Shown: piece by piece, positions 15,503 to 64,000 of the stretch | How positions within the stretch are numbered: the stretch's first letter is position 1 | Layout of the letters: the number at the start of each line of letters is the position of its first letter | Origin: Nitrososphaeraceae archaeon | GTDB taxonomy: Archaea; Thermoproteota; Nitrososphaeria; Nitrososphaerales; Nitrososphaeraceae | Direction: 5' to 3' | Assembly: GCA_031316115.1 (NCBI GenBank) | Contig: JALDRC010000002.1 | Location: 310,001-374,000 of the forward strand | DNA: 64,000 nt | The notes under the pieces: model-generated | Databases searched by the model: none | Told to the model about the DNA's origin: nothing | The model's input: the letters and a program-made list of their open reading frames with translations, nothing else | Program-made: the position numbers and the translations under genes

Positions 15503-15977
15503 TATACTTAAAATATTAATTACAACTAAATCTTTAAAACATGTTACTTCAGGTTTTTAAATCACCATCTCGGAGCACACTATTTTAATTTCTACAAATT
15601 TTGCTATTTTCTATTTGATATATTGTTATTATAACTTTCTATTTATTTTCTTAATTGATCAAATATCACCTCAAAACATATGACTTCAGATTTGTTGTCA
15701 CTACTCTCAATTTGTTCTACCTATAGAGCAAAATCTTTTTGATAGATCTAAAAACCATAAAAAATTTTATATAAAATATGTCGCTCTTATGCACAAATCC
15801 TATTGGTATATATTAATACTTGAAAACTTAAATCTAAAATCCAATATTTTAACAAATATTGATTAATTTATTTTAATTGTTATATTTCTTTGTATGAAAT
15901 ATTTTTAAGATCTAATTTTCCTCTATTATGTAAATAAAAATTAATGTTATGGCTTTGGAGTTTTTAAATAAATTTCA
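15503..15977. other. Convergent AT-rich intergenic region
   Basis: No supported gene or structure. It separates the 3' ends of the folate operon and the VOC gene. Confidence 0.4.
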
Positions 15978-16397
15978 TCATTCTGGTGCAAAGCCATGAT
16001 AATATGGTATCTGAGAAAATTCTTCTGTTGGTTTTGGTTCGTTTAGCGAAATTAGATAACCATCTGGGTCTTCTACTATTACGTTTTTGCCATAAGGACC
16101 TTCATTTACCTTACGATAAAATTTTATATTATTTGTAACAAGAACGTTATGTAGCTCATCAAAGTTCGTTATCATGAAAGTTATCATTATGTTTCCATTT
16201 GAAGAGTCAGATTTACTTTCATTTTCAGGAGTATTCTTACCTAGAGTTATATTGATACTTTCTCCTCCTTTATAAGCGAATTCTATTCTATCTTCTGTTT
16301 TTTGGTTTATTTGCATTCCTAATATTCCATTGTAGAATTCTAATGATCTCTTTACATCTGTAACCAATAACGATATGCCTTTTATTTTGTAAGACAT
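15978..16397 (-). CDS. VOC superfamily (glyoxalase/dioxygenase fold) protein
   Basis: A single VOC domain of 139 residues starts M-S-Y-K-I-K-G-I-S-L-L-V-T-D-V, followed by S-L-E-F-Y-N-G-I-L-G-M and ending with V-E-D-P-D-G-Y-L-I-S-L-N-E. These are the two beta-alpha-beta-beta-beta modules of glyoxalase I, fosfomycin-resistance and ring-cleavage enzymes. Substrate cannot be assigned. An ATG 15 nt further upstream exists, but a TATA element centred near 16421 would start transcription at about 16395, so the inner ATG gives a leaderless mRNA and is chosen. Confidence 0.82.
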   Translation of the reverse strand: MSYKIKGISLLVTDVKRSLEFYNGILGMQINQKTEDRIEFAYKGGESINITLGKNTPENESKSDSSNGNIMITFMITNFDELHNVLVTNNIKFYRKVNEGPYGKNVIVEDPDGYLISLNEPKPTEEFSQIPYYHGFAPE

Positions 16398-16416
16398 ACC
16401 ATTTGTTATCAATAAC

Positions 16417-16426
16417 TTATATATAA
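16417..16426 (-). promoter_or_regulatory. TATA element of the VOC gene
   Basis: The + strand TTATATATAA is nearly self-complementary. Read leftwards it is centred about 25 nt before the inner ATG at 16397, which decides the start of that gene. Confidence 0.4.
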
Positions 16427-16752
16427 CTTAATGTTAAAGAATTTTTTTTCCTTAAAATCCTATCTCATTTTTCTTCTTTTTAGTCTCGTTATGGTACTTT
16501 CAATGGGTTACCCATCAATAGATTTCATTATTTCATAAACCTTCTAAACCAGAATAACAAAAAATAAATATATAAATGTTGTAAAAACTACAAATTTTTT
16601 TGACTTTATTCAAAATCCTTCATTAAATTGAAATATTTATGAATTCTATCTGAAAATGCATAAATATAGTCTAACCCTTTTTAAATAAACGTGGGGATAA
16701 ATAAATTTCCAATATTAATAAACCACTTGAAAAGTTTAGAGAGGAGAAAATT
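16427..16752. other. Divergent intergenic region
   Basis: Promoter region for genes on both sides. Near 16735-16752 lies a purine-rich stretch with GAGAGGAG, a good ribosome binding site for the oxidoreductase ATG at 16753, so that mRNA has a leader, unlike many genes here. Confidence 0.45.
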
Positions 16753-17835
16753 ATGACAATAAAATTCGGTTTTACTCAGGGGCTTAATGTTGCAAGATTG
16801 GGTTTGGATGAAACTCAGATCATTACAGCGTGTCAGATGGCAGATAGGTTAGATTATGATTCTATTTGGGCAATGGACCATACTAATGTTCCTCAATGGA
16901 AAAATGCAGTCGTAAATGATGCTTGGTTATTGCTAGCAGCAATAGGAGCATTAACAAATAAAGTTGAGCTAGGTACTTGTGTTACCGATGCGATAAGAAG
17001 ACATCCGTCTACTATAGCTTTAGCAACTGTAACTTTAGATAGGTTAACAAATGGTCGAGGAATACTCGGAATAGGCGCGGGGGAAGCTCAAAATGTAGTC
17101 GATTTTGGTATTGAATTTAACAAGCCAGTAACAAAATTAAAGGAACAACTTGAAGTTATTGACAAGCTTTTTCAGTCTGATCCCGATAATAGAGTAGATT
17201 ACGAAGGTAAATACTATAAATTGGATAATGCCTGCCTCCAAGCTGCTAGTATCAGAAAACCAAGACCTCCAGTTTATATCGCAGCTGGTGCACCTAAAAC
17301 CCTGGAACTATGTGCTAAATATGGGGATGGTTGGATTCCAATAGGTTATACTCCTGAATTATTTAAAGCACATGCGAATGTTATAAAAGACCATGCTAAA
17401 ACTGCAGGCAGAGATATAACTAACTTTCAATTTGCTAATGATGTAGATATTTATTTCACCGAAGACGGTGAAGAAGCTTGGAATAAAATGAAAAATGCGG
17501 TAAAGGTAAGTTTATTCAAACCTGAATTACTTAAGGTACACAATATACAACAAGATTCTGAATTTGATTTTAGAAAATACTTTACTGAATATGCAATGAA
17601 CAAACCAGAGCTTATGGAGCAAATGAAGAAGGCAGCATTAAAAATTCCAGATAGTGTTGCACGAACTGCAATCGGGGTTGGAAAGCCTGATGATGTAATA
17701 GAAATGTTAGAACGTTTCATTAACGCTGGTGTAAATCATTTCATTATTAGGTTTTGGGGAGATGGGTATTTCAAAAATATAGAAATGTTTGGTAAAAAAG
17801 TTATTCCTTACTTTAGAGGAAAAAATAAGAAATAA
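16753..17835 (+). CDS. LLM-class F420-dependent oxidoreductase
   Basis: The 360-residue TIM-barrel protein belongs to the luciferase-like monooxygenase class, near the methylene-tetrahydromethanopterin reductase (Mer) and F420-dependent glucose-6-phosphate dehydrogenase branch. Visible blocks: D-Y-D-S-I-W-A-M-D-H near residue 38, L-G-T-C-V-T-D-A-I-R-R-H-P near 77 (the conserved C-V-T-D and R-H-P), G-R-G-I-L-G-I-G-A-G-E near 105 and P-P-V-Y-I-A-A-G-A near 176. Nitrososphaerota make F420, and such proteins are abundant there. The actual substrate is unknown; a Mer role in C1 metabolism is possible but unproven. A strong ribosome binding site precedes the ATG. Confidence 0.85.
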   Translation: MTIKFGFTQGLNVARLGLDETQIITACQMADRLDYDSIWAMDHTNVPQWKNAVVNDAWLLLAAIGALTNKVELGTCVTDAIRRHPSTIALATVTLDRLTNGRGILGIGAGEAQNVVDFGIEFNKPVTKLKEQLEVIDKLFQSDPDNRVDYEGKYYKLDNACLQAASIRKPRPPVYIAAGAPKTLELCAKYGDGWIPIGYTPELFKAHANVIKDHAKTAGRDITNFQFANDVDIYFTEDGEEAWNKMKNAVKVSLFKPELLKVHNIQQDSEFDFRKYFTEYAMNKPELMEQMKKAALKIPDSVARTAIGVGKPDDVIEMLERFINAGVNHFIIRFWGDGYFKNIEMFGKKVIPYFRGKNKK

Positions 17836-56756: not shown

Positions 56757-56830
56757 GGGCCTATAGCTTAGCCTGGCAGAGCGACCGGCTCATAACCGGT
56801 AGGTCAAGGGTTCAAACCCCTTTAGGCCCA
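56757..56830 (+). tRNA. tRNA with anticodon CAT (Met elongator or Ile2)
   Basis: Acceptor GGGCCTA with TAGGCCC, D-stem GCTT/GAGC, anticodon stem ACCGG/CCGGT around CTCATAA (CAT), T-arm AAGGG/CCCTT around TTCAAAC, discriminator A and no encoded CCA. The G1-C72 acceptor excludes the archaeal initiator. Ile2 with a modified C34 and elongator Met cannot be separated here. An integrase starts 47 bp downstream, so the 3' half is the probable attachment site. Confidence 0.9.
56795..56830 (+). other. Probable left attachment site (tRNA 3' half)
   Basis: The 3' part of the tRNA gene adjoins the integrase, the usual arrangement for archaeal tyrosine-recombinase elements. No second copy of the segment is found in the window, so the right end must lie beyond 64000 and the crossover cannot be placed. 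Confidence 0.45.
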
Positions 56831-56877
56831 TCTTCAAATTCTTATATACTAGGCTCAAATAATAATAACAGCATTAA

Positions 56878-58116
56878 ATGCAAATCTCCTCACAGATATC
56901 TGCATATCGAAAATTCGAATATGGTCTTAAATCTCCTGCTACCAAAAGACAATACCCTAAACGATTAGAACATTTTTTAGATTTTTTAGATCTATCAACC
57001 AAAGAAAGTAGTATTGAAGATAAAGTAAACACCCTTTACATAATGATTCAAGATAATGGCAGGGAATGGTTTGAAGACAAACTAATGCAATTTTTTCAGT
57101 TACAGAATGAACGGGTTCAAAACGGAGAAATGTCAATAAATACAATTACCAATTATTACAAACCAATCAAACTCTTCTGTCTTATGAATGGAATTATTGC
57201 TAATTGGGATTTAATATCAAAAGGAATTGTAAAAGGAAATCAAGTTTCTGAGGATAGACCTCCTACAATGCAAGAAATTCAACAATTGGTAAAATATCCC
57301 GATATCAGAGTCGAAATGATTGTTTCAGTAATGATCTCATCAGGTATAAGGTCAGGTTCATGGGATTATTTAAAATGGAAAGATCTAACTCCTATAGACA
57401 AGAATGGCGTGATAGTAGCGGCAAAACTGCGAGCATTCAATACAAAGACAAAAAAATATTATAATACTTTCATAACAGCAGAAGCCTACAATCTTGTTAA
57501 AAATTATATGGATTTTCGTCAATCTCATGGTGAAAAAATAAATGGTGAGGCTTGGCTTGTAAGAGATCTTTGGAGAATAAAGAGCCAGAGATTTGGTAAT
57601 TATTTAGGTCTTGCACAAGCACCCAAACGGTTAACCAGTCATGGAATACGTATGTTAATATCTAATGCATGGAAAGTTCAAGGAATTAGAAATAATTTAG
57701 AAAATGGCCAAACAAGATTTGAATTCAAAACAATGCATGGATTCCGTAAATTTTTCGAGACAGAATGTCAAAAGAAAATGAAATCTCTAACTTTATTTTT
57801 GTTAATGGATCATGATACAGGAATAGTGAAACACTACAATAGACCAAGAGAAGATGAACTCTTAGATGATTATCTAAATGCAGTACACTTGCTTACAGTA
57901 AATGAAGAGAATAGGTTAACAAAACAGGTACAGGAATTAAAGAAAAAAGACGAATATCAAAAATACCTAATTGACAAAAAGATAGATGAAAAGGATAAAG
58001 AGATTGCAGAAATGAAGGAAAAACTGAACAAGTATGAAGAATATGATAAAATAATGAATAATCTTCTGATCAAATTCGAGAAGTGGGAACGAGAACAAAA
58101 AAAACAAAAGGTTTGA
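56878..58116 (+). CDS. Tyrosine recombinase (integrase)
   Basis: The 412-residue archaeal-type integrase has an N-terminal SAM-like DNA-binding part (about 1-120) and the catalytic domain with R in S-S-G-I-R-S-G-S near 160, H-G-F-R-K near 285, the H in M-D-H-D-T-G near 309 and Y in K-H-Y-N-R-P near 319. A coiled-coil tail (L-T-K-Q-V-Q-E-L-K-K-K) follows. It is intact and should cut at a tRNA att site. The TGA stop overlaps the first codons of the integrase remnant downstream. Confidence 0.9.
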   Translation: MQISSQISAYRKFEYGLKSPATKRQYPKRLEHFLDFLDLSTKESSIEDKVNTLYIMIQDNGREWFEDKLMQFFQLQNERVQNGEMSINTITNYYKPIKLFCLMNGIIANWDLISKGIVKGNQVSEDRPPTMQEIQQLVKYPDIRVEMIVSVMISSGIRSGSWDYLKWKDLTPIDKNGVIVAAKLRAFNTKTKKYYNTFITAEAYNLVKNYMDFRQSHGEKINGEAWLVRDLWRIKSQRFGNYLGLAQAPKRLTSHGIRMLISNAWKVQGIRNNLENGQTRFEFKTMHGFRKFFETECQKKMKSLTLFLLMDHDTGIVKHYNRPREDELLDDYLNAVHLLTVNEENRLTKQVQELKKKDEYQKYLIDKKIDEKDKEIAEMKEKLNKYEEYDKIMNNLLIKFEKWEREQKKQKV

Positions 58117-58697
58117 TTTCAAGAATGTTCATGGTTTTAGAAAGTTTCTTTGAAACTGAATGCCAGAAAGTTATGAATCCTGTTAACATTTCTTATCTGA
58201 TTTCACATAATACTGGAATGGTTCAACAATATTACAAACCAACAGAAGATGTTTTATTACAAGATTATCTTAAGGCTATCGATGTACTAACAATTAACGA
58301 AGAATTCAGACTAAATAAACAGGTACAAGAACTTAAGCAAAGAAATGATTATCAAAAATATTTAACTGATAAAAAGATAGACGAGAAAGACGAACAAATC
58401 AGGAAACATAGTTCTAGGTTAGAAGAATATCATGAGATTCAGCAAGAAGACAGAATAATGAGTAAACAACTGATGAGAAATATATCTGATATAAATAAAA
58501 AACTAGAAGAGTTGGAAATTATCGGAAAGGAACAACGAAGACTAAACAAAGAGTATGAATATATCTCATTTGAAGATACCAATGAAGACAACCTAAAAAT
58601 AAATGATGAAAAGTTTGATAAAATGCTTCAAACTCCCAGACAAAGGATTAAAAAAACAGGGAGAACTAGAACAACATATTTTACAAACAACAGATAA
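58112..58697 (+). pseudogene. C-terminal remnant of a second integrase
   Basis: Right after the first integrase stop, the frame F-D-F-K-N-V-H-G-F-R-K-F starts, equal to F-E-F-K-T-M-H-G-F-R-K-F in the first. One extra nt then shifts to the frame F-E-T-E-C-Q-K-V-M, H-N-T-G, Q-Y-Y-K-P and L-N-K-Q-V-Q-E-L-K-Q, followed by a longer coiled-coil and a basic end. The N-terminal half and catalytic Arg are missing. It is a diverged paralogue, not a copy, so an older element at the same tRNA is likely. Confidence 0.75.
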
Positions 58698-60302: not shown

Positions 60303-61298
60303 TTATTGATTATGGGATTTTAACCATTCTTGTGAATCTTCTATAAACTCATGATGAGCATAGTCTTCATCCTTTTCCATATCAATATCTCTTGGTTTCG
60401 TGTTATGAAATTTTCTACTTTCTAATTCTTTAAATATATCTGGAAATACATTTTTGAATGCATTAATCAACAAGTTATAATTTTCTTCATTCATTTCCAG
60501 ATTAGACAAATTTCTAGTTTTTGAATATTTGTTGTTATAGTAATTATACTCCTCTTTTGCATCTTGATAAGCCTTAATATGAATAGAATTAATAAAATTT
60601 GTATCTTGTTTAAAACGTTCTTTATCTGCATCAGAAAATGACTCGATAATCTCTTTTGTAATACGTTTCTGGATTTCATTTAAAGACCGCGATTTTACAT
60701 ATTCTTGTCTTAATCCCTCTCTTACAAATCCCAATTTACAAAACTGTTTAAAGATTGTTTTAGGATCTATTAAATCAGATATCCATTTTTCTCTAAATGA
60801 CCCTCTATCTCTTTCTTTCATTTTTATCTCTTTAACTCGAAATCCATTTACTGAGACTGTCTGTTTTTCTGATTCAAAGGCTTTTATCAGAATATATAGA
60901 ATATATCCAGCAATTTTATTGGAGAACTCATATAATACTATCTCTTTGAATAACATATCATTACTAAATAATTCTCTATCTGGAATTTCTATTGTTGTGA
61001 ATTTATTTGGTCTCTTATGATTAATCTTCCATTTCAAAATATTGTTTAAAGTTTTATATCGATATCCTCTGTTCTTTGAATTAGATTTACTTAAATCTAT
61101 ATTAATATTTTCTGCAAATCTATATTTGCCGAATTTTCCATCTCTGACTAATATTCCCTGGTTGATTAGCATTTTACCATAGTTTCTAACTGTATCTCGA
61201 TTTAATCCCGTCTTTTCACAAAGTTCTTTCTGGGCAAGAGGTGTATCAACTAATGCCAATTTGATTTTATCAATATTATCTTCTGCATCTATACGCAT
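60303..61298 (-). CDS. Winged-helix DNA-binding protein of the element
   Basis: The 331-residue protein has an N-terminal wHTH (about 10-60: Q-K-E-L-C-E-K-T-G-L-N-R-D-T-V-R-N-Y), then a long alpha-helical part with no family I recognise. It is divergent from the RHH gene, with a 61-bp region between them. It could be the element's main regulator or a replication-associated protein. The only gene of the element on this strand. Confidence 0.65.
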   Translation of the reverse strand: MRIDAEDNIDKIKLALVDTPLAQKELCEKTGLNRDTVRNYGKMLINQGILVRDGKFGKYRFAENINIDLSKSNSKNRGYRYKTLNNILKWKINHKRPNKFTTIEIPDRELFSNDMLFKEIVLYEFSNKIAGYILYILIKAFESEKQTVSVNGFRVKEIKMKERDRGSFREKWISDLIDPKTIFKQFCKLGFVREGLRQEYVKSRSLNEIQKRITKEIIESFSDADKERFKQDTNFINSIHIKAYQDAKEEYNYYNNKYSKTRNLSNLEMNEENYNLLINAFKNVFPDIFKELESRKFHNTKPRDIDMEKDEDYAHHEFIEDSQEWLKSHNQ

Positions 61299-61359: not shown

Positions 61360-61512
61360 ATGCAACACACGAGTTTGCAAAACAAGACAAAGGTTGTCCG
61401 TATTTCTGATAAAAACTATAACAAAGTAATTTCTATTGGAAGATACGGAGAAACGTTTGACTCAATCCTGTCTAAATTTTTGAATCAGGAGGAGGCCAAA
61501 GATAATGACTGA
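61360..61512 (+). CDS. Small ribbon-helix-helix antitoxin-like protein
   Basis: The 50-residue frame reads K-V-V-R-I-S-D-K-N-Y-N-K-V, then I-G-R-Y-G-E-T-F-D-S-I-L-S-K-F-L, the pattern of VapB/CopG antitoxins of archaea. It overlaps the next gene by 8 nt. A strong GGAGGAGG within it serves the next gene. No standard toxin (PIN, RelE) follows. Confidence 0.7.
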   Translation: MQHTSLQNKTKVVRISDKNYNKVISIGRYGETFDSILSKFLNQEEAKDND

Positions 61513-61843
61513 AAAAAACAGGATGCCCTTCGCCAAGAACACCCAACGAGAAACTAGCGAGTCGTCCGTTTTATATTTGAACGAACTTCTAGATAAAACT
61601 TATGCTATCCCTGACAAGATCAAAAAATTATCAACTTTGATAACTGTACCTTACACAGGTCATGAATTCCCAATTCTGGAAGAGCAGGTTAAAGAACAAT
61701 TACGAACTGAACTAGTAGACGATTTATTTTTCATAATTGACAACCTTAACCGTCCTCAACTCCTGGGAAATAGAATGTTGAAACTGGCTAGCGCCGTACG
61801 ATATGGTTGGAATGGTCAAGGCATTCCAATACAAAAACACTAA
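61505..61843 (+). CDS. Unknown protein coupled to the RHH gene
   Basis: The 112-residue protein is mostly helical and charged (L-Y-L-N-E-L-L-D-K, E-E-Q-V-K-E-Q-L-R-T-E-L). I recognise no motif of a toxin or nuclease. GGAGGAGG lies 9 nt upstream of the ATG, inside the RHH gene, and the two genes overlap by 8 nt, so they are made together. It may be part of replication control or a toxin of an unknown type. Confidence 0.65.
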   Translation: MTEKNRMPFAKNTQRETSESSVLYLNELLDKTYAIPDKIKKLSTLITVPYTGHEFPILEEQVKEQLRTELVDDLFFIIDNLNRPQLLGNRMLKLASAVRYGWNGQGIPIQKH

Positions 61844-61979: not shown

Positions 61980-63365
61980 ATGATACTATACAATTCAGAT
62001 TTTAACGATAATGAAAATATTGAAAGCGAAGATATTGGGATAGCAGTAGCAAGAGAAGAGGAACTAGTGAAGGAAGATCCAGAAAAGGCATATTTTGATA
62101 TTTGGGATAAACCAATGCCTGAGATTCTAGAGAAACCTACTACTAGTAATGGCAATAGAAAATCAAGCAAGCAACAACAAAATGATAAAGAAGAGTCACA
62201 AAAAGAAGTTTACAGTCAGAAATATTCAGGAAATGATTATCTTGCAGAAGCCGTTTTAATTGGAAATAAACCATACTTTGCAACAAGCGCAAAACTAAGT
62301 GAGATTAACGATTTTCCTTCCATAGTCTTACTTGAATCTATACCATTGGATGAAACTACTATTTTAAAACCTACGGAGGTAATGTCATATCTAAATAAAC
62401 CCTATGTCTTTGATTCCAAGGAAGAATTTTATGAATATGTTGAAGAGGTCAAGAACAATGAAGATCTATATTCACTGTTTAGACAGGTAAAATCAATCTG
62501 GAAAAAATATGATGATGCAGATGATTTCCATATTTCAATTTGTGCAGCAGATACGATATTTTCATATCTACAGGATAAAATTGGATTAACTCATTACCTA
62601 TTTTTTATAGGAAATAATGGATCTGGTAAATCTAATAACTTGATAATTTTTCATTATTTAGGTTATAGAAATATGATGTCTACCGATGTAACAGCAACAA
62701 ATATCTATCAGTATTTGGGTAGTATGCAGGAAGGTATTGGAACGTTATGCGAAGATGAAGCAGACAATATAGACATAAATACAGATAAGATGAGAATCTA
62801 CAAAAATGGTTATACAAGTGGATTTCCAGTATTTAGAACAGACACCACTTTTGGAAGAAAACAATATCGATTCTTTACATATTGCATTAAAGCATTTGCA
62901 GCAGAGAAAACACCTGATTCTATAAAGGGCAAAGGATTTAATCAACGTATCTTAGAATTGCATTGTACACCTGGATTCCCACAATACGATATTTCTGAAG
63001 TCGTTAATCCTGCAGGAGAAACAGAACATGAAAAATTATTAAATGAATTATTGGAAACCAGGAAAAAGTTACTTATCTATAGGTTATTACATTTTCATGA
63101 TAAAATACCAGATATTAAACTAAATATTGAAAATAGAGAGAAACAATTGTTTAAACCAATCATTAGGATATTCCAGGACTCAAATGAGGTATTAGATGAA
63201 CTATTACCAGTTATCAGTAATTATGTAAGTCAGAAAAGGGAAAGTAACGCTGATTCTCTAACTGCTAGGATTTATCAACTTATAAAAACAATGATTAAAG
63301 AAATAAACTCACCACAATTAGAATCTGGTAAAATATGGAATAGGTGCTTTGTTGCACAACTATGA
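61980..63365 (+). pseudogene. Element P-loop ATPase (helicase/primase-like), 5' part, split by a transposon
   Basis: After a low-complexity N-terminus (about 1-85) comes a domain with Walker A G211-N-N-G-S-G-K-S218, Walker B C-E-D-E (257-260) and a downstream K-A-F-A-A-E-K-T-P-D and R-I-L-E-L segment as in virus and plasmid AAA+ helicase-like ATPases. Codon 455 (R) is the last native residue; the next six codons and the TGA belong to the insert. Removing the insert and one 8-bp duplication joins it in frame to the coding DNA after 63493. Without this it is truncated but may still be translated. Confidence 0.8.
63337..63344 (+). repeat. Target-site duplication, left copy
   Basis: GGAATAGG adjoins the left end of the miniature transposon and is repeated exactly at the right end. 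Confidence 0.92.
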
Positions 63366-63485
63366 AAATCGATAATATGATATGGAATTTTGCCAGGAAC
63401 AAATTGCAAATATAACTTCTCTCCTTTACTGTGGATGCATTTTTTTAGTCAAAATCTACGAAAATCATAGTTGTGCAACAAAGCA
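63345..63485. mobile_element. 141-bp miniature inverted-repeat transposable element
   Basis: The element starts and ends with perfect 20-bp inverted repeats (TGCTTTGTTGCACAACTATG at 63345 and its complement at 63466-63485). It is flanked by the direct repeat GGAATAGG. It contains no gene. Beyond the perfect part the repeats continue imperfectly (AAAATCG against TTTTCG). TGTTGC-type ends and 8-bp duplications are usual for the IS6 family, but the full-length partner is not in the window. Confidence 0.92.
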
Positions 63486-63493
63486 GGAATAGG
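63486..63493 (+). repeat. Target-site duplication, right copy
   Basis: GGAATAGG adjoins the right end of the miniature transposon. Deleting the insert plus one copy restores the reading frame. Confidence 0.92.
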
Positions 63494-64000
63494 GTAAAAG
63501 TAGAGTTAGAGGGTGAAGATATCAAACCTCAAACTATCCAAACCCCTGAATTTGGTACAATATCTCAAAAAATGATTATATGTATACTTAAAGATGTGTT
63601 TAAGGCTAAACCACCTAAAAGACATAACATTGCAAGAAGTCTGGTATTCGATTTAACTATATTGGAAAAGTTGGGACAGGTATATGATTTAGATATTAAT
63701 GTCAAAGTCAGGAGAAAGACAACAACAGATTTAGAAAATGGGACACATGGGACACATGAGACGCATTTTGGGAACCCTCCCGGACTAGATTCTAACATTT
63801 ATGACACGGAATTGGAAGAAACTACCCTTCTCGAGGACGAATCTACTAAAAAGCCAGAAAATAACCATGAAAAAAGTGATAATAACGCTCAATTACCTTC
63901 TCCTGAAGGGGAAAGCAGTCCAGATAGTGAAGAATCAACTCAAAGTACTACTGAAAATAATGATATTGATCGGGACTGTTCCAATAATGCGTCCCAAGCG
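63494..64000 (+). pseudogene. Element P-loop ATPase, 3' part, runs off the window
   Basis: The frame V-K-V-E-L-E-G-E-D-I-K is open for all 169 codons up to the window edge, with no stop and no good start of its own. The first 80 residues are helix-rich (M-I-I-C-I-L-K-D-V-F-K, L-T-I-L-E-K-L-G-Q-V-Y-D-L-D), like a winged-helix end of such ATPases. After that it is acidic low-complexity, with H-G-T-H-E-T-H near residue 80. It belongs with the frame ending at 63344. Confidence 0.75.

Follow-up and report, generated by a model that had tools for sequence, protein, structure and literature searches.

The window analysed here is a 64,000-nucleotide stretch of contig C12 (JALDRC010000002.1, positions 310,001 to 374,000) from the genome of a Nitrososphaeraceae archaeon, and it contains a tRNA-Met (CAT) gene (56757..56830, plus strand) that is the integration target of a mobile element. 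At the 3' end of this tRNA gene lies a 23-bp sequence, attL (GTTCAAACCCCTTTAGGCCCATC, 56810..56832), which is repeated exactly as attR at C12:383296-383318 (window position 73296-73318, beyond the window), and the two copies bound a 16.5-kb integrated element. Directly beside the tRNA gene we found a tyrosine integrase gene (56878..58116, plus strand, 412 aa), the product of which carries the Arg, HxxR and Tyr motifs and matches PF00589 with an E-value of 0.00019, below the curated cut-off. This apparently complete gene is followed by a second, truncated integrase gene (58083-58697) that comprises the C-terminal part only and is 53% identical over 111 aa. The cargo of the element includes an NHL-repeat protein and an alpha/beta hydrolase, and no terminase was recognised among its listed reading frames. 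Further inwards, a gene for a winged-helix-like protein (60303..61298, minus strand) lies divergent to an ATPase module, in which a small ORF (61505..61843, plus strand) precedes an ATPase gene that is present in two parts. The upstream part (61980..63365, plus strand) specifies 461 aa with a Walker A (GNNGSGKS) and a Walker B (DEAD) motif, whilst the downstream part (63494..64000, plus strand, continuing to window position 64192 in C12) encodes a conserved C-terminal domain and a C2H2-like finger.

Between the two parts lies a 141-bp miniature inverted-repeat transposable element (MITE; 63345..63485, plus strand), flanked on both sides by the 8-bp target-site duplication GGAATAGG (63337..63344 and 63486..63493). 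The first-pass annotation had described this unit and its perfect duplications correctly; its terminal inverted repeats (TIRs) are likewise perfect, as had been claimed, but measure 21 bp (TGCTTTGTTGCACAACTATGA, 63345-63365 and 63465-63485) rather than 20 bp. A reading frame of transposase size is impossible within 141 bp. When the window was scanned for perfect inverted repeats with an overall span of 60-400 bp and a flanking 8-bp direct repeat, the MITE was the sole structure with arms of ≥10 bp, and 20 shuffles of the window produced none with arms of ≥12 bp.

The effect of the insertion on the ATPase gene can be read directly. The upstream frame takes its last six residues and its stop codon from the MITE, the TGA at 63363-63365, with which the left TIR ends, and the downstream frame is open from a GTG at 63473 in the right TIR past the window end, with its first stop at 64192. 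Removal of the MITE and one duplication copy (together 149 bp, which is not divisible by three) yields a single frame of 687 aa. The earlier proposals that the gene stops within the left repeat, remains open to the end of the window and closes upon excision of the unit were thus borne out. The genome also encodes an uninterrupted paralogue of 678 aa (C1:59157-60494), with which the joined protein aligns without gaps at 82% identity over 615 aa, and the DNA of the two genes aligns through the empty insertion site. Moreover, each of the 23 homologues exceeding 480 aa in length reads past this site, such that related ATPases do not normally end there. The homologue alignment is nearly fully occupied up to about residue 525, and what the insertion removes is a conserved domain of ~70 aa, present in nearly every homologue, together with a variable tail bearing the C2H2-like finger; both Walker motifs stay in the truncated product.

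In order to trace the MITE beyond this locus we searched the 3.16-Mb genome, which is assembled in 20 contigs. Seven copies do not differ by a single letter over their 141 bp; every one is bracketed by a perfect 8-bp duplication, and the seven duplications all differ from one another (GGAATAGG, CCTTTTAC, TAATTGTG, GTTAATCA, TAATCTTG, GAATGAAT and TATTTATC). A chance origin of the structure is therefore excluded. Most of the identical copies other than that in the ATPase gene lie outside any long reading frame. One of them, in C14:386861-390015, is close to the 5' end of a minus-strand frame (positions 1227-2039) that appears to be the downstream piece of a gene disrupted by a frameshift, coding for a small protein that resembles a membrane anchor; this copy may therefore lie within another gene that is broken. 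Conserved flanks noticed at the C14:388369 copy were a chance likeness, the true duplication being CCTTTTAC. In C16:267757-270898, at about positions 1485-1505, the outer left end of an eighth copy is altered or lost whilst TCTATTAC still stands on both sides; this is possibly a dead copy.

Several diverged copies (about 76%) also occur in the same genome, and relatives were detected elsewhere at 84% in Nitrososphaerales archaeon TH1177, of the same genus, and at 69-75% in another genus. A scan of a public genome collection for the MITE ends returned six matches, among which the sole MITE pair was in TH1177 (JAATVJ010000420.1), and the same scan of viral contigs returned none. As diverged copies and relatives coexist with identical copies, these comparisons show that the MITE family is older and has undergone a recent burst. 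Against the paralogue, dN/dS was 0.11 upstream of the insertion and 0.12 just after it, with no sign of decay. Given this unchanged ratio and the identity of the MITE copies, we regard the insertion into the ATPase gene as recent on sequence grounds, in keeping with what had first been proposed.

The split ATPase is one of a large family of AAA+ ATPases from archaeal elements, in which the Walker motifs are conserved. It had no sequence match in Pfam, NCBIfam or PDB and none in phage and plasmid records, and viral contigs contained one distant relative (25%). Comparison by hhalign with DUF5906/D5-type helicases placed the nucleotide-binding motifs in register, at a probability of only 3.9% (E 0.011); a single-sequence structure model (mean pLDDT 36.8) was too poor for use. 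Because the family libraries give the protein no name, we can only infer that it is the replication helicase of the element. Around the paralogue, too, a winged-helix gene is divergently oriented and a small ORF lies upstream, and both are related to their counterparts beside the split gene. Also near the paralogue, in C1:40001-60000, is a weakly terminase-like ORF (15939-17561, minus strand; PHROGs E 0.0006), and the paralogous ATPase may for this reason be part of a provirus.

Should the ATPase indeed be its helicase, the 16.5-kb element may have lost replication. The suggestion that the element is disabled or newly trapped in the chromosome goes further than our data: the integrase beside the tRNA gene and both att repeats look intact, so that the element may still be able to excise, the upstream part continues to specify the AAA+ core, and the uninterrupted 82%-identical paralogue could act in trans. 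A related reading is that the split gene is still functional, be it through the truncated AAA+ protein alone, through that protein together with a re-initiated C-terminal part, or through cover by the paralogue. The Walker motifs of the upstream product, the in-frame GTG within the right TIR, the existence of the paralogue and the low dN/dS past the insertion would all fit. However, a domain that nearly all homologues possess has been removed, and a recent insertion alone would predict low dN/dS; on balance we think continued function unlikely, whilst giving it some weight.

As the MITE itself encodes no transposase, we looked among the insertion sequences (IS) of the genome for elements with the same ends. 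The 17 terminal MITE bases, TGCTTTGTTGCACAACT, were found exactly (17/17) at one end of two full-length IS5-family elements, one of 1011 bp with the duplication CATCTAAT (C14:82118-83128) and one of 1017 bp with the duplication GAAACAAA (C18:47136-48152), whilst two sister elements (C19:40767-41772 and C1:478707-479715) have slightly different ends. These full-length relatives measure 1002-1017 bp, carry 8-bp duplications and possess a single transposase ORF of ~300 aa that belongs to the IS5 family (NF033579, score 275.7 bits, threshold 140; also PF01609 and PF13737). For the ISH1 subgroup of this family a length of 900-1150 bp, an 8-bp duplication and one ORF are tabulated (PMC6352166), values with which the resident elements agree; they also have TGC-starting ends like those of ISH1. 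We accordingly call them ISH1-like, a placement drawn from size and duplication length. In these IS5-family elements the MITE has full-length relatives within its own genome, although the end identity covers only 17 bp and one end: no IS in the genome was found to share all 21 end bases or the MITE interior, and beyond ~17 bp there is no similarity. Diverged MITE copies end in, for example, TGCTTTGTTGCGCAATT, like the second set of IS (TGCTTTGTTGCGTAATC, TGCTTTGTTGCGCAATT), a pattern that hints at a lasting match between the ends of MITE and IS subfamilies. Taken together, the end sequences make the resident ~1.0-kb IS5-family elements the likely source of the transposase.

Two other candidates were considered. 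At about positions 492-1807 of C2:113200-115900, a diverged MITE copy is broken by a 1.17-kb IS with GAGxCTGGGTCATAATT ends and a 345-aa DDE transposase frame containing one TGA. Flanked by MITE-like halves (C2, 113.7-115.0 kb), this IS was tried as the autonomous partner and rejected as an unrelated, nested insertion, because its other copies end in the same GAGxCTGGGTCATAATT. Insertion by the IS6 family also gives 8-bp duplications, and it was on account of this length that IS6 was first suspected as the partner. The genome has 54 IS6-type (PF13610) matches, and their ends are loosely like those of the MITE (GCTxTGTT). Nevertheless, the resident IS6 elements, of about 721 bp, have ends such as GGCTCTGTTAA, which match the MITE at only ~7/10 positions, whereas the IS5-type ends match at 17/17, so that membership of the MITE in the IS6 family, with mobilisation by an IS6 transposase, is highly improbable.

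The explanation we favour, with a probability of about 0.88, is that a non-autonomous MITE, moved in trans by a resident IS5-family transposase, recently split the ATPase gene of the element. The ends of the 141-bp unit would be recognised in trans by the ISH1-like DDE transposase of a ~1.0-kb resident IS. The MITE entered codons 453-455 of the ATPase gene in the tRNA-Met element, duplicating the 8-bp target GGAATAGG. The 149 bp gained are not divisible by three, and the left TIR brings a stop, so that the ATPase is shortened from 687 to 461 aa, with the AAA+ core retained and the conserved C-terminal domain gone. Mobilisation by the resident IS5 copies is the step that we deduce from shared ends and duplication length. 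It is extremely improbable that the insertion instead turned one gene into a two-gene arrangement, in which the AAA+ core would end after six MITE-encoded residues and the right TIR would supply, in frame, the GTG for re-initiation of the C-terminal domain; if true, the insertion would change rather than abolish the ATPase of the element. We give next to no credence to the break being an assembly artefact or the normal end of the ATPase, as we found no point in support of either, the 20 contigs of the assembly contain the MITE at seven sites, each time with a perfect duplication, and the 23 long homologues run on past the site.

A transposon breaking another mobile element is an expected and ordinary event, and the general interest of the case is accordingly modest. 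Its value lies in being complete and internally controlled in an archaeon of the ammonia-oxidising type, with identical copies, candidate autonomous partners and an empty site via the paralogue. The case also attests to recent activity of IS5-type elements in a genome of the Nitrososphaerales, and the split gene offers a ready test of whether this ATPase family is needed for element replication.

Comparison with known systems places the insertion as follows. Like other prokaryotic MITEs, ours is shorter than 200 bp, has perfect TIRs and a target duplication, lacks a transposase gene, exists in several near-identical copies and has terminal bases in common with a resident IS; from the ISH1-like IS it differs in being without a transposase and in sharing only ~17 terminal bases. 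Archaeal MITEs are on record, for example the SM1-SM4 families of Sulfolobus (PMC10969869), but our MITE is of a different sequence family and this copy lies within a mobile-element gene. Amongst the integrated elements described in thaumarchaea (proviruses, conjugative and cryptic elements), seven carry transposon insertions (PMC6563490). The 16.5-kb element resembles these in its tRNA target, tyrosine integrase, AAA+ ATPase and cargo genes; in contrast to them, the insertion here is a MITE and it breaks the ATPase gene. As both transposon-bearing thaumarchaeal elements (PMC6563490) and archaeal MITEs (PMC10969869) are on record, the event is of an already known kind, of which it is a new and unusually well controlled case.
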